The notes below the pieces were generated by a model. The model was not told the origin of the DNA and did not search any database. It saw only the letters and a list, made by a program, of their open reading frames with translations. Made by a program: the position numbers and the translations under genes. DNA of 64,000 nucleotides, from contig NZ_CP054020.1 of assembly GCF_013282625.1 (NCBI RefSeq), positions 248,001 to 312,000 on the forward strand, written 5' to 3'. This DNA is from Thiomicrorhabdus xiamenensis (GTDB lineage: Bacteria; Pseudomonadota; Gammaproteobacteria; Thiomicrospirales; Thiomicrospiraceae). Shown here in pieces: positions 19,792-26,658 of the stretch. How positions within the stretch are numbered: position 1 is the first letter of the stretch; each line of letters opens with the position of its first letter.

Positions 19792-20556
19792 ATGGTATTT
19801 GCCTGGATTGGCGCACTGTTTATCGGGATTACGCTGGGGCTTCTGGGCTCAGGCGGATCGATCTTAACCGTTCCGGTTCTGACCTATGTGGTCGGTCAGG
19901 AGACGAAAGTGGCGATAGCCGGATCATTGATGATTGTCGGTATTATCAGTGTCTTTTCGGCAATACCCTATGCTCGACAACAGCTGGTTCAGTGGAAAAC
20001 CGTGGTTCTCTTCGGGGTTCCGGGAATGGCCGGTGCCGTAGCCGGTGCCTGGAGTGCGCATTTCGTTTCGGATGCGATTCAGATGCTGATTTTCACCGTT
20101 CTTTTGTTGATTGCGGCTTATTTCATGTACAAGCCGATGAAGCTTCAGGACGGGGAACATGAACCGCGCGCTTTTTATAAGATCGCTATCGACGGTTTCA
20201 TCGTCGGGAGTGTTACCGGTCTGGTCGGTGTCGGCGGCGGCTTCCTGATTATCCCGGCGCTGGTGCTTCTGGGCGGTCTGTCGATGCGTCTGGCGGTCGG
20301 AACCAGTCTGGTGATTATTGCGGTGAAGTCGTTTGCCGGTTTTGTCGAATATCTGTCGGTGCTCAAAGCGCTGGATCTGACTTTGGACTGGAGTATTATC
20401 GGAATTTTCTCGGCGATCGGTATTTTCGGTGGCTGGCTGGGGCACAAGATCAGTTCCAGAATCGATCAGGAAGCGCTTAAGAAAGGCTTCGCAATCTTTA
20501 TGCTACTGATGGGGCTGTTTATTCTTTATAAGAACATTCCGGCACTGCTCGCCTAA
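19792..20556 (+). CDS. TauE/SafE family membrane transporter
   Basis: A 254-residue polytopic membrane protein with about eight hydrophobic segments in two halves. Each half opens with a Gly-rich helix: GITLGLLGSGGSILTVPVL near residue 10 and GSVTGLVGVGGGFLIIPAL near 145. This is the TauE/SafE (DUF81) repeat. Family members export sulfite, sulfoacetate or other organosulfur anions; the substrate here is not determined. TAGGAGAATCCT precedes the ATG, and a strong terminator follows. Confidence 0.88.
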   Translation: MVFAWIGALFIGITLGLLGSGGSILTVPVLTYVVGQETKVAIAGSLMIVGIISVFSAIPYARQQLVQWKTVVLFGVPGMAGAVAGAWSAHFVSDAIQMLIFTVLLLIAAYFMYKPMKLQDGEHEPRAFYKIAIDGFIVGSVTGLVGVGGGFLIIPALVLLGGLSMRLAVGTSLVIIAVKSFAGFVEYLSVLKALDLTLDWSIIGIFSAIGIFGGWLGHKISSRIDQEALKKGFAIFMLLMGLFILYKNIPALLA

Positions 20557-20580
20557 GCTGAACAGCTTTCTTTCATATAC

Positions 20581-20611
20581 AAAAACGGCGCTTATTAAGC
20601 GCCGTTTTTTA
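20581..20611 (+). terminator. Intrinsic terminator after the TauE gene
   Basis: A perfect GC-rich hairpin, AAACGGCGCTTA/TAAGCGCCGTTT, followed by a T-run on the plus strand and preceded by an A-run. It can therefore act in both directions, ending the TauE gene and the small exported-protein gene that converges on it. Confidence 0.9.
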
Positions 20612-20640
20612 TTGTCCGCAGTGCAACGCTGATTAACCGC

Positions 20641-20895
20641 CTACTGCTGTCCGTGCCCGAGTTCTTCAGGCGTTTCCTTTAATTCAGGTTTGCGCTGTTC
20701 TGCCTGTTTAAGGTCTTGAATATAGGCGCGAATAGCTGCTGCGAGCGCCGGGTTCTCTTTGGCATAGTTTTCGAATCCGGCTGTATACGGATCATTATAG
20801 GAACCGCTTTCCTGAGAGGCCGAGGCCAGACTCGGCAGGTTTAAACCGGTTGTGACTGCCAGAGCGGCAAACATTAAAGGCAAGTTTTTTCGCAT
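20641..20895 (-). CDS. Small exported protein sharing a module with the MBL-fold protein
   Basis: An 84-residue protein with a clear Sec signal peptide (about 1-27, ending SLASAS). The mature part is 57 residues. Residues 35-66 (DPYTAGFENYAKENPALAAA onward) match residues 28-59 of the exported MBL-fold protein at 24326 at 16 of 32 positions. The ATG at 20895 is chosen because of an excellent GGAGGTG upstream; the longer frame from 20940 has no ribosome site. The tail is charged and Glu-rich. No named family is recognised. Confidence 0.75.
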   Translation of the reverse strand: MRKNLPLMFAALAVTTGLNLPSLASASQESGSYNDPYTAGFENYAKENPALAAAIRAYIQDLKQAEQRKPELKETPEELGHGQQ

Positions 20896-21151
20896 ATACA
20901 CCTCCAAATCATTTTTGTGAGTTAATGAGCTGAAACGCAAGTGTCATTGCGAACAATAATCTAAGGACGGTATTGGTTTTTTTAAAGGGCGTCGATACTG
21001 GAAAGTGTCTAATTTCCATCTATTCAGTCGGGCATACGACCATTAACAAACTGTCATTTAAGTTTCATATTGACTTCTATTGCGGCCGCTACCATTCCCC
21101 CGATTAAAAATACTTACAGATATAACGGGTTTATTCTCGGGGGCATGCGAA

Positions 21152-23689
21152 GTGAAAAATTTATCGATTGTGAAACGACTGTGGCTCAATTTGTCGATTG
21201 CGGTAGTGATTACTTTTGCAATCGCCTGGGGCGGTTTAAGCGGTTTGTGGAAAGCGCAGGCTTCTTCCAACAGCATTCTGCAGCAGGAAACGCAGAAGAT
21301 CGCGCCGATCGAAAATTTTCATGACGGTTTCCGCGCGCTGGTGGACGAAATGATGCGCTTGCTGCTGACCCGCTCTGACGAAGGGCAGGTGAAATTTGCC
21401 CAGGCTTTGGATGCCCAGCAGAATCTGCTGCTTGAGTTTTTCGCGATGCTGGGTGTCGAGGTCGAAGATAACGGCAATGGCTATTTGCAAACGGCTGCGG
21501 ATCAGGGCGAAATTCAAACGCCAGAGACGGCAGAACAGGTCGAAGATCTGCTGGCGATCAACCGCGTTCTGATCAATCTGCAGAAAGCGACACAGAGTTA
21601 TCTGTTTCTGAAAAAAGATATCGAAAACACCTATCAATACGGTATCGAAAGCAGCTCGGAGTCAATTGAAGAGAAACTGAATGTTTTGCTGGTCAGTGAA
21701 GCAGTGACTGAAGAACCGGCTCTGCAGCAGAATATCTCAAGTTTGCAGGAGAAGTTGCGGATTTCCAAACGTCTGGCGGCGCAACTGATGGTTTCCGGCG
21801 ATTTTGCTTTTCTTGACCAGTTCGAAGAAAAGGGGTTGGGCGAAAGTGCGAAACAGGATCTCGCTTCGCTTAACGAGGGGTTGAGCGGTAACTTCCTGGT
21901 GCAGGAAACATTCGAAGGCGTGAATGATTCGCGCGACGGCTTTATCGAAAGCATGCATGATATCCGCGACGGTCTGCGCACGGCTAGGGAGAATGACCGA
22001 ACCATCTCAAAACTGGTCTATTCGGCGCAAGAACATTTTGACCGGCTGTTGAATTTCTACAAACAGCAGCGGGTTGATGCCTTGCAGGAAGTTGAAATCC
22101 TTTCTGCCGAGCGTATCGAGCAGATGGTCTGGGTTGCCCTCGGCGGTCTCCTGACTATGGTGCTGGTCAATATGCTGTTTATCCGTTCGATTACCCGACC
22201 TTTGAATCGCATGAAGCGACAGGTTAACCATATTACCCGCCGAATGGACTTTGACGCCTGGCAGACAGCGCAAGGCCGTAATGAACTGACCGATATGGAA
22301 CAGTCGATCGAGGCGCTGTTAAAAAGCTTTTCCGGGGCCATGCAGGAGGTGATTGTCAGCAGCCAGTCGCTTGCACACGGCGATCTGGATATTTCGCTCT
22401 CTGAAAATTATCAGGGAGATCTGAAAAAAATGGCTGATCATTTCAATGCCAGTATCGGGCAGGTAAAGCAGACCTTGAATGGGCTCGAAGAGGTCAGTCA
22501 GTCTCTGGCCAACGGAAACTTAAACCATCAGATTGCGTTGAAAGATTACACAGGCCAGTATCACTCGGTTATGAGCGGTTTGCAGAAAGCGATTTTCGAA
22601 CAGAAGCAGGCGATTGACGAAGTGCGGCGTATTTCTCTGGCGATGGAGCGGGGGGATTTTTCTCTGCGCATCGAACATCAGATGCCGGGCGATCTCGGCT
22701 ATCTGAAAAGCCATTTGAACGATGCGCTGCATAATCTGGAACAGGCGATTTTCAATAAGGTTGCGGCTTTGCAGGCGTTCAGTGAAGGGGATTTCTCCTA
22801 CGAGATTCCGGGACAGTATCAGGGCAAACTGCGCGAACTTAAAGAGCATATGGTTTCCATGGCGGAAAAAGTCAGTCAGATGCTGGATGAAATTAAAGTG
22901 TCGTCGCATCTGGCCGAAGTCGGCGTTCGCGAAATCAGCGACGGTAATCAGGAATTGAATCAGCGGGTCGAAAGTCAGTCCGATCTGATTCAGAAAACAT
23001 CCCAGCGCATGGGGGCGATGGTGACCTTTCTGGAGGGCAGTTTTGCCCAGTCTTCCGAGGTGGCCGAAGCGACGGCGAATGTCAAACAGCAGACCTCTTC
23101 CGGCGTTAATACCGTCGAAGAGATGGTCGATGCCATGCAGCAGATCGAACTGGCGAGTCAGGAGATTGCTGGCATGACCGATACCATCGACAGCATCTCT
23201 TTCCAGACAAACCTGCTCGCGCTGAATGCCGCGGTCGAAGCCGCCAGAGCCGGAGAGATGGGGCGCGGTTTTGCCGTGGTCGCCCAGGAGGTGCGTAATT
23301 TGGCGCAGCGTTCAGCGGAAGCCTCGCAGCAGATCCGCCAGGTAACCGAGCAGACGTTGCAAAGGGTGGAACGCGGCTTAAAACTGTCCGAGCAGACGCG
23401 TTCGGTATTCAGTAACAATGTCGACCATATTGAGAAGATCGCCGAGCAGGCCGTGCAGATGAAGTCATCGATCAAAGATCAGAATCATTCGATTATCGAA
23501 GTCAATGAAGCGTTGCAGAAGATTGAAAATGTCACTTTTGCCAATGCCGAACTGGTGAAGCAGGTGACCTCGACCTCGACGGAAATCATTGAACAGGTTT
23601 CCAGCGTGCAGAATAAGATGCAGAGTTTCTCATTAAGAGAGATGGCATTGAAGCGACCGCCTCAGCTGTCTAATAGCGCTGTTCAATAG
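21152..23689 (+). CDS. Methyl-accepting chemotaxis protein with periplasmic domain
   Basis: A chemoreceptor of 845 residues from the GTG at 21152, which gives a classic N-terminal membrane anchor ([21 protein letters not shown]). A frame from a TTG at 21080 has no ribosome site. A large helical periplasmic domain follows, with a second membrane helix near [20 protein letters not shown], then HAMP and repeated HAMP/coiled-coil segments. The signalling tip is [20 protein letters not shown] and neighbours. The ligand is unknown. It lies between two genes for exported proteins that share a module. Confidence 0.9.
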
Positions 23690-23706
23690 GGTGGGCGAAT
23701 AAGAGA

Positions 23707-24285
23707 CTAAGCTTTCAAGCTTTTTAAGGTGGTTGCAAATATCTGTTGCGCCAGATAGTCGGTCTGATGGTGTTTGGGCTGCGAGCCGGGAAGGAAATCG
23801 CGCATATTTCCGATCTGGAAATGGAACAGTGTCATTCCGAGAAGAGTGGTGATGGTAAAGTGCAGATCGCTGTCCGGATTAATTTGTCGAAGAATTTTTT
23901 CCAGCTGTTTACAGCTTTCAGCCATTACGGTTTCCGCAAGAAACTGCAACTTTTGAGGATCGTTTTGTAACAGCTCGCGGAGAATTAACTGGCGGAAAAA
24001 GGTGTCTTCGGCCATTTTATAGGCGCTCAGACGAATCACTTCTTTAAGTTTCTCTTCGGCGCTCTGTTCGCCGACCAATACTGCAATCAGTTGTTCGTTG
24101 TGCTGATCGAAAACCGATTTCAAAGTGGCCTGATAAAGGCTCTGTTTGTCTTTGAAATGGTTGTATAGCGAAGGGGCTTTAATTCCGCAGGCTTTGGCAA
24201 TATCCCGCATTGAGACGGCCTCGAATCCTTTTTCGGAGAAAAGTTCCGCGGAATGCGCCAGTATACGGTCATAAGTCTGCATCAA
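23707..24285 (-). CDS. TetR family transcriptional repressor
   Basis: A 192-residue TetR/AcrR regulator. The N-terminal helix-turn-helix (about 8-54) includes the typical FEAVSMRDIAKACGIKAPSL and YNHFKDKQSLYQATL. The C-terminal helical part is the ligand and dimer domain, with an unknown inducer. It follows the MBL-fold gene by 40 bases on the same strand. A palindrome at 25463-25480, in the promoter region of that gene, is a good candidate operator, which would make the operon autoregulated. Confidence 0.88.
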   Translation of the reverse strand: MMQTYDRILAHSAELFSEKGFEAVSMRDIAKACGIKAPSLYNHFKDKQSLYQATLKSVFDQHNEQLIAVLVGEQSAEEKLKEVIRLSAYKMAEDTFFRQLILRELLQNDPQKLQFLAETVMAESCKQLEKILRQINPDSDLHFTITTLLGMTLFHFQIGNMRDFLPGSQPKHHQTDYLAQQIFATTLKSLKA

Positions 24286-24325
24286 TTAAAGCCCTTTGTT
24301 TCGAATTTATTCTTATGGGTAAATC

Positions 24326-25426
24326 TTACTCGAAACTTTGTCCTAAGTCGCCCCCGGTGAGCTCTTTATAGACGTGAACCGCATTGTGCTGATGCGTTTG
24401 CTGGTACACCGGACGGTCTTTATAGGCAGACTGGTCGATTGAAGCCATATCTTCTTCCTTGCCACCTGCGGCAATCTTCTGCTTGACGGCATTGCGCAGA
24501 AACTCAAGATAGCCCAGAGTGTCTTCGCTGATTTTCGCCATATCGGTCGGAGCGCCGTGTCCCGGAACGACAATGACATCTTCCGGCATAGCGGCTTTCA
24601 TCGCTTTGAAAGTGTCAACCCAGTGTCCGGTATGGGTGTAGGAGAACAGGGCCAGAGAACGCTTGTTATAGGCAACGTCACCGGTATACAGCAGATTACG
24701 GCTTGGGATATAGGCGAGTGTCGATCCCGGAGTATGTCCTGGTCCGAAATTAAGAAGCTCGACCGTTTCGCCGCCGCCGACATCGATTACCAGCTTGTCG
24801 TCAAATTCGGTGAACTTGTCACTGACATTGCGCGCCGAGTGGGTGATGTCCTCGCCGACGCGTCGCGCCCAGCTGGCTTTGATCTCTTTAAAGCCGTTGT
24901 TGAAGTCCTGATTGGCGCGGCTGTGCGAATAAAGGTTTTTGACGCCGATGTTCACCCAGTAGCTGGCACCCAGATAGGCGTGGCCCTGAGAGTTTTCTAC
25001 CGCGATCCATTTCACCGGTTTATCGGTGTGTTGTTTGATCTGCTGGTGGAAACTGTATGCAACGGCGGGGTTTGGTCCGGCATTGAAAACGAAAACGCCG
25101 TCTTCAAACTCGACCCATGACAGGTTGTTGTTCAAACCGAAGTTTTCCGGTGTGTGCCAGATCAGACTGCCGACCACGGTATAGGCTCCATCGGTCACTT
25201 TCTGAGGTGCAGGGAGTGTCAGTTTCTTTCCGATATAACCGGCTTTGCGTTCCGCACTCTGCACATCTTTCATGTAAGCTTCGAGACTTCCGCTTAAAGC
25301 GCCGTTTTCTTTGGCGTAGGCGGCAAATCCCTGTACAAAAGGATCATCGGAAGAAGCCTGAACCTGAAAGCTGATGCCGCAGGTCAAGGTTGCCAGTATA
25401 GCGGTGGTAATAGGGCGAAAAAGCAT
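24326..25426 (-). CDS. Exported metallo-beta-lactamase-fold protein, degenerate metal site
   Basis: A 366-residue protein with a Sec signal peptide (about 1-24), an N-terminal module (28-61) shared with the small protein at 20641, and a metallo-beta-lactamase fold resembling SoxH/quinoprotein-relay hydrolases. The usual HxHxDH motif reads ENSQGHAYLG at 144-153, so the His, His, Asp and His positions become Asn145, Gln147, His149 and Ala150. The later ligands remain: His231 (GPGHTPGS), Asp250 (YTGDVAY) and His290 (VPGHGAP). It may bind one metal or have lost hydrolase activity. AAGGAG precedes the ATG. The TetR gene follows. Confidence 0.85.
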   Translation of the reverse strand: MLFRPITTAILATLTCGISFQVQASSDDPFVQGFAAYAKENGALSGSLEAYMKDVQSAERKAGYIGKKLTLPAPQKVTDGAYTVVGSLIWHTPENFGLNNNLSWVEFEDGVFVFNAGPNPAVAYSFHQQIKQHTDKPVKWIAVENSQGHAYLGASYWVNIGVKNLYSHSRANQDFNNGFKEIKASWARRVGEDITHSARNVSDKFTEFDDKLVIDVGGGETVELLNFGPGHTPGSTLAYIPSRNLLYTGDVAYNKRSLALFSYTHTGHWVDTFKAMKAAMPEDVIVVPGHGAPTDMAKISEDTLGYLEFLRNAVKQKIAAGGKEEDMASIDQSAYKDRPVYQQTHQHNAVHVYKELTGGDLGQSFE

Positions 25427-25462
25427 AAGCGCTCCTTGGTGGGTTTTGAGTCGAAATTAAAT

Positions 25463-25480
25463 CTAACTAACGTTTGTTAG
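25463..25480. promoter_or_regulatory. Candidate TetR operator palindrome
   Basis: An 18-bp near-perfect palindrome with arms CTAAC-AAC and GTT-GTTAG around an AACGTT core and one mismatched pair of positions. It lies 37 bases before the start of the MBL-fold gene, where a promoter is expected. Size and symmetry suit a TetR-family dimer, and a TetR gene is in the same operon. No second copy was seen in front of the small exported-protein gene. Confidence 0.5.
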
Positions 25481-25572
25481 GTAGATGATTCTAACAACTC
25501 TTGTCGCCATTAGCGCTTAAAAAAATTTATAACGAATAAGTTGTTTTTGGGGGTGTTTGTGAAACGCTCTTT

Positions 25573-26568
25573 TTAAAAACGACACGTCTGTAAATGCAGG
25601 TTGCCGCCTTCGACACCGTCTTCCAGTATCAGAAATTCAATGCTGCCTTTGCCACGGCGTTTGAATTGTATGCCTTCCGGTTTGCCTTGTGGGCTGTCGA
25701 TTTCGCACAACAGACGCAAGCCTTGTGTATCGCGATCGGTTCCGCTCAGTTGATTGCTTTCATCCCAGTAATAGACGGCATAGGAGAGTGCCTGATCGCC
25801 AACCGCTCCGGCGAGGATCAGTTGCCCCTGATGGCTCCCGTCGGCATCTTTAACCGGACTCATGCCGCGCAGACCGCGGCCGTCCAGATTGAGCCACAGC
25901 CATTTGGTTTTTTTAACGGCGAAATGGCTGTCTGATTGCAGTTTCAGGCGCAGAACCGGTACCCAGTTGCCGCGTAATACCGGGCCGCGAAAGCCGACCA
26001 GAAGACGGCCTTTGGCATCGACGGTCAGCGCTTCAAGATCGATTCCGTTCTCTTTACTGGGAATAGAGATAAAAGGCGCGACGATTTTCTGCTCGGCCAG
26101 GATCTCCTGTAGCGAAAGGCTTTGTATTTCCGTTATGTCTGCATTTTGATTCAGCGTCAGTCGGAATAGCCGTTGCCGTTCTTCTTCAGGGCTGGTTTGC
26201 GCCAGCCGTTTCAGGTTTTGTTTTTGGTTTTTGTCGGCCTTTAATTTTTTGCGCTTGGCGCTGTGCGATCCGAGCGCGTACAGGAAAGGCGCCTGGTAAG
26301 CGAGTGCCTCCAGATCCAGTTCGACCGAATCCTTATCCAGAGAAGGCGTTTGTTGCAGCTGCCAATCGGCGCCATGTCGTTTCAATATCGCCAGACGACT
26401 GCCTTCGTCGGTGACCAGCGCCAGATAGTCGTCGAATTCGACTATTCCACTCAGGTTATCGGCGTCGATTGGCAGCGCTGGAAGGGCTGCGGCGCGACTT
26501 GTGACCGCGAACAGGCTGAATAAAAGCACTGCGCAGGCATAGAAAAAAAGCGATAAGGTCTTTGGCAT
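25573..26568 (-). CDS. Exported DUF3616-like protein
   Basis: A 331-residue protein with a signal peptide (about 1-27, TSRAAALPALP). The repeated strand motifs (LSGIVEFDDYLALVTDEGSR, IDLEALTVDAKGRLLVGFRG, LDGRGLRGMSPVKDADGSHQ, PEGIQFKRRG) resemble the DUF3616 family, which has a propeller-like build and often occurs in exported proteins. A Lys-rich linker sits near residues 105-130. No enzymatic motif is visible, and function is unknown. It is divergent from ttcA. Confidence 0.7.
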   Translation of the reverse strand: MPKTLSLFFYACAVLLFSLFAVTSRAAALPALPIDADNLSGIVEFDDYLALVTDEGSRLAILKRHGADWQLQQTPSLDKDSVELDLEALAYQAPFLYALGSHSAKRKKLKADKNQKQNLKRLAQTSPEEERQRLFRLTLNQNADITEIQSLSLQEILAEQKIVAPFISIPSKENGIDLEALTVDAKGRLLVGFRGPVLRGNWVPVLRLKLQSDSHFAVKKTKWLWLNLDGRGLRGMSPVKDADGSHQGQLILAGAVGDQALSYAVYYWDESNQLSGTDRDTQGLRLLCEIDSPQGKPEGIQFKRRGKGSIEFLILEDGVEGGNLHLQTCRF

Positions 26569-26658
26569 GAAGCATTCCCGGCTAAGAATTTAGATTTGGC
26601 GAGTGTCGATTATTGTAAAATAGGCGCTAAATTTTTACAGCAAGCAAATAACAGAGCC

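Follow-up and report, generated by a model that had tools for sequence, protein, structure and literature searches.

Why should a bacterium make, as a separate exported protein of 84 residues, a segment that also begins a much longer exported protein encoded nearby? The question arises in Thiomicrorhabdus xiamenensis, at a locus within a stretch of 64,000 nucleotides (the window) that sits in a complete 2.59-Mb genome. A first-pass annotation of the window had proposed that a small exported protein and an exported MBL-fold protein form a periplasmic system with a chemoreceptor and a TetR regulator whose genes lie between theirs. The genes are indeed arranged in this way:

19792-20556, + strand: TauE/SafE-type permease gene, convergent to the small gene.
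20581-20609, no strand: inverted repeat AAAAACGGCGCTTA/TTAAGCGCCGTTTTT with A/T runs on both sides, read directly from the sequence.
20641-20895, - strand: gene for the small exported protein (84 aa, ATG start; GGAGGTGTATATG), laid out as signal peptide, helical module (residues 35-68) and conserved C-terminal tail KPELKETPEELGH.
21080-23689, + strand: methyl-accepting chemotaxis protein (MCP), a neighbour outside the finding.
23707-24282, - strand: TetR-family repressor (PF00440, 63 bits), directly 3' of the MBL gene and co-directional with it.
24326-25426, - strand: exported MBL-fold protein, SoxH-like, 366 aa, with the module at residues 28-62.
25467-25480, - strand: probable TetR operator CTAACAAACGTTAG in the MBL promoter region, with the conserved pattern CTAACAnnYGTTAG.

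The module is common to both proteins. BLASTP aligns them with an E value of 3e-11, signal peptides included. Mature parts alone give a local score of 97, whereas 5000 shuffles reached no more than 54, and chance similarity is thereby ruled out. Profile-profile comparison of the small-protein and MBL families gives a probability of 98.2% (E 5.3e-14). In both proteins the module directly follows the signal peptide, itself predicted from sequence, just as first described. Its supposed helical nature agrees with an AF2 model of the small protein, which predicts helices at residues 36-47 and 49-68 (block pLDDT about 87) between disordered ends. This model is given modest weight because its alignment holds three sequences only.

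Where else does the module occur? The small-protein profile was searched across 63 genomes of the bacterial family at a threshold of E≤0.01. Outside nine small proteins, the matches are MBL frames of about 350-425 aa, with two exceptions in genome G002: one is a broken MBL, the other an additional stand-alone module. The module, here called the arm, is found on exported MBLs of about 370 aa in five genera, a single genome having as many as four module-bearing paralogues; the free form occurs in two genera. A third copy in the present genome, about 2 Mb away, is N-terminal in a second MBL. Among 369 genomes of the class, further matches were marginal only. The profile search suggested by the first-pass annotation thus confines the module to this protein family and lineage, and the possibility that it is widespread in unrelated exported proteins is rejected for the 63 family and 369 class genomes. 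A scan of viral contigs gave zero matches for the MBL, and a scan of genome contigs gave two loci only. The literature search found nothing on the small protein or on the arm-bearing MBL family.

The MBL-fold protein scores above the PF00753 gathering cut-off (27.3 bits versus 22.7). Its best curated matches are TIGR04558 (E 9e-23) and TIGR04559 (E 4.7e-22), SoxH-like quinoprotein relay zinc metallohydrolases. It resembles these in its exported MBL fold and in keeping the C-terminal ligands H231, D250, and H290, but it falls well below both cut-offs (80.8 bits versus 300; 78.7 bits versus 280) and carries the additional N-terminal arm. No PQQ context was noticed in the loci read. Most matches to distant SoxH-like relatives start at residue 70-75, that is, beyond the arm; the arm is therefore an addition of this lineage.

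In place of the HxHxDH motif, the protein has E-N145-S-Q147-G-H149-A (residues 144-150). Residues N145, Q147, H149, A150, H231, D250, and H290 are invariant among 22 MBL members, and most of the wider SoxH-like relatives have a similar Q-x-H replacement of the metal motif. Fold kinship with subclass B1 and B2 metallo-beta-lactamases (CphA, PDB 1x8g and 3sw3) and with PDB 8d2z is detectable by sequence; ungapped alignment to 8d2z and CphA matches N145 with His116, Q147 with His118, and H149 with Asp120. However, the protein lies far under every resistance-family cut-off (45.5 bits versus 200 for subclass B1) and has NxQxHA instead of HxHxDH. Identity as a beta-lactamase is rejected on both counts: the sub-cut-off scores; and the N and Q that stand for His116 and His118. 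An AF2 model of the MBL from a 3-row alignment (mean pLDDT 43.7) is too poor to reveal the role of the arm.

The MBL gene also has a distinct recent history. Positions 24236-25482 show one mismatch in 1247 bp relative to the sister genome G026 (L030), and both flanks are about 90% identical. Between G000 and G026, dS is 0 for the MBL and 0.35 for the neighbouring TetR. The segment is a sharp, recent recombination tract that spans the MBL gene, the start of the TetR gene, and the operator.

The TetR gene belongs with the MBL. The pair is kept in G000, G026, G011, G023, G024, and G013, each time with TetR directly downstream on the same strand. All six TetR-linked MBL genes are preceded by the palindrome CTAACAnnYGTTAG; it also occurs, at no more than about 50 bp, upstream of the gene for a 137-aa membrane protein (G000, G026, G013, and G023) and of the gene for a DUF4395 membrane protein (G023 and G011). 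These two membrane protein genes account for all of the non-MBL sites, although the raw number of palindrome sites was no higher than that of a reversed control pattern in every genome. (The predicted regulon sites are positions 25467-25480 of the window and position 1501 of L107, L104, L109, L111, L108, and L110.) None of seven small genes tested has the palindrome upstream, and TetR control of the small gene is rejected. Together, the sites are good evidence for a small predicted TetR regulon, with the MBL inside and the small gene outside.

What, then, is the small protein? Profile search of the 63 family genomes identified small proteins of 76-84 aa in nine: G000, G026, G024, G011, G003, G023, and G014 within the genus; and G059 and G095 in a second genus. 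The nearest named relative, Thiomicrorhabdus sp. 6S3-12, encodes a small protein that is 98% identical. The first-pass annotation had considered the protein to be essentially the free module, a description that overlooks its own conserved C-terminal tail. The tail consensus is KPxLVETKEELGH, clearest in the form KPSLVETKEELGH of G011 and G003. In alignment, the small proteins are 43-53% identical and share intact frames, signal peptides, and the common tail. The YAKEN core is unchanged in six aligned small proteins, and a seventh has one substitution. Substitutions were counted by pooling two species pairs, G000/G026 and G059/G095: four of the 17 coding changes are non-synonymous, where a share of about 77% would be expected in the absence of selection (P 5e-6). 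The gene is therefore maintained and is not debris; its own tail together with purifying selection marks a real gene family. Searches of family libraries with the small protein gave nothing useful, the one match (KdpC) lying below its cut-off. The small protein is very probably a conserved, free-standing MBL arm.

Several features connect this free arm to one MBL clade. Both the small proteins and the TetR-linked MBLs have a short arm, YAKEN-x-x-L, without the insert present in most other MBL arms. Mean identity of the small proteins is 45% to the TetR-linked clade, versus 37% to other MBLs. A tree of the 40-residue module groups the small proteins with support of 0.985; it places one MBL among them and is otherwise weak, and it is weighed only jointly with the arm indel. 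In G011, the order on one strand is MBL, TetR, small gene, beside TauE, as a partial tandem duplicate would leave it. Most likely, the small protein arose by partial 5' duplication of a TetR-linked MBL gene, a direction and route that we infer from these comparisons.

A comparable reduction has occurred elsewhere. An AI-2E-type permease gene precedes the MBL at all 11 other loci. In G002 (L161:346-627), such a permease gene is followed by an exported, stand-alone arm of 93 aa with no MBL body. This is an independent reduction of a different MBL locus to the arm alone, as seen in one assembly that is 83% complete. At a second G002 locus (L162:147-1267), the MBL is split between a 104-aa frame for the arm and a separate 205-aa frame for the body, through either pseudogene formation or assembly error.

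Three other accounts of the locus fare poorly. The proposal of a periplasmic system of two proteins, in which the small protein and the MBL would bind a single ligand or partner and present it to the neighbouring chemoreceptor, draws on the common module and on the neighbourhood in G000, G026, and G023. These are, however, the only three of the nine genomes in which a close MCP relative adjoins the small gene; weaker relatives elsewhere in the genus occupy other locations, and the receptor is missing from the locus in the remaining six. Linkage between the binding protein and the receptor is therefore not conserved, and a system centred on the chemoreceptor and TetR is not supported: TetR and its operator track the MBL and never the small gene, and MBLs encoded far away from such a receptor also carry the arm. 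The small gene has the chemoreceptor beside it by chance, and a part for the receptor in such a system is the least probable account of all. A decaying, functionless MBL fragment might be suspected from the patchy spread (nine of 63 family genomes) and from the similar reduction in G002, yet intact frames, signal peptides, and a common tail at 43-53% identity, together with the deficit of non-synonymous changes, make decay very improbable. Finally, a free helical protein could have come before its fusion to the MBL. The armless SoxH-like relatives would suit this reverse direction, but the arm is present on MBLs of five genera and free in only two, and the free form most resembles a single MBL clade; this order of events is improbable too.

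The best explanation overall, to which we assign a probability of roughly 0.55, is that the small protein is a paralogue of the MBL arm, made by partial duplication and acting in trans at the surface on which the arm docks. A TetR-linked MBL gene would have had its 5' end, encoding signal peptide and arm, duplicated; the duplicate would then have acquired its own C-terminal tail and come under selection. In the periplasm, the arm may be a kinked helix pair packed against either the body of the MBL or a partner of the MBL. The free copy would take the same surface in trans, competing with or substituting for the arm of at least one MBL paralogue, and could thereby tune MBL assembly or partner binding. 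TetR would repress the MBL-TetR unit and a few membrane protein genes through CTAACAnnYGTTAG, with the small gene outside that control. Taken by itself, the trans-acting mechanism is put forward tentatively and is open to considerable doubt. The fuller version, in which free arms are periplasmic trans regulators competing for a docking site and arose from MBL genes at least twice in the family, is less likely still.

The main rival to this mechanism accepts descent from the MBL arm but supposes that the small protein now has an unrelated periplasmic job (for example, at the envelope or close to the TauE-type permease) without ever encountering an MBL. This is a distinct possibility. The small protein has its own conserved tail, and none of the small genes tested has the MBL-type operator. 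The first-pass annotation had also asked whether the small gene and the MBL gene co-occur. They are sometimes kept together, but the linkage is weak: an MBL lies near the small gene in four of the nine genomes, including one near-identical pair. In the other five the small gene is unlinked to MBL genes; it is near no MBL in G003, G014, G059, and G095, and in G024 about 400 kb separate it from the MBL-TetR pair. G003 has the small gene alongside only the other MBL type and without a close TetR relative. Co-occurrence of small protein and MBL is itself uninformative, because most family members have module-bearing MBLs. By comparison, TauE adjoins the small gene in five of seven genus genomes and is its most constant neighbour there. 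The two convergent genes probably share the inverted repeat at 20581-20609 as a bidirectional terminator, to judge from its sequence; the repeat was not among the matches of a terminator pattern scan. Two points weigh against an unrelated job. The module core, and not the tail alone, remains MBL-like, as the near-invariant YAKEN residues attest. Moreover, the interval between TauE and a TtcA-like gene (20557-26595) varies in content among species of the genus, and a roughly 220-aa, unrelated protein is often encoded there instead, so the adjacency of TauE may be positional only.

Microprotein-type regulators provide a precedent for action in trans by paralogues that arose through partial duplication. 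The small protein resembles them as a single domain of a larger protein that has a gene to itself, here with its own signal peptide; it differs in being known from sequence comparison alone.

Free-standing MBL arms are a small, conserved, lineage-specific family of modest interest, mainly for their origin and for the idea of action in trans. If trans action on the MBL is true, they would represent a clean case of a periplasmic regulator made by partial gene duplication, with a parallel case in a relative. The arm-bearing MBLs themselves are an uncharacterised exported family of sulfur-oxidising bacteria with an invariant, non-canonical metal motif. With a TetR regulon now predicted, the physiological role of this MBL family becomes testable.
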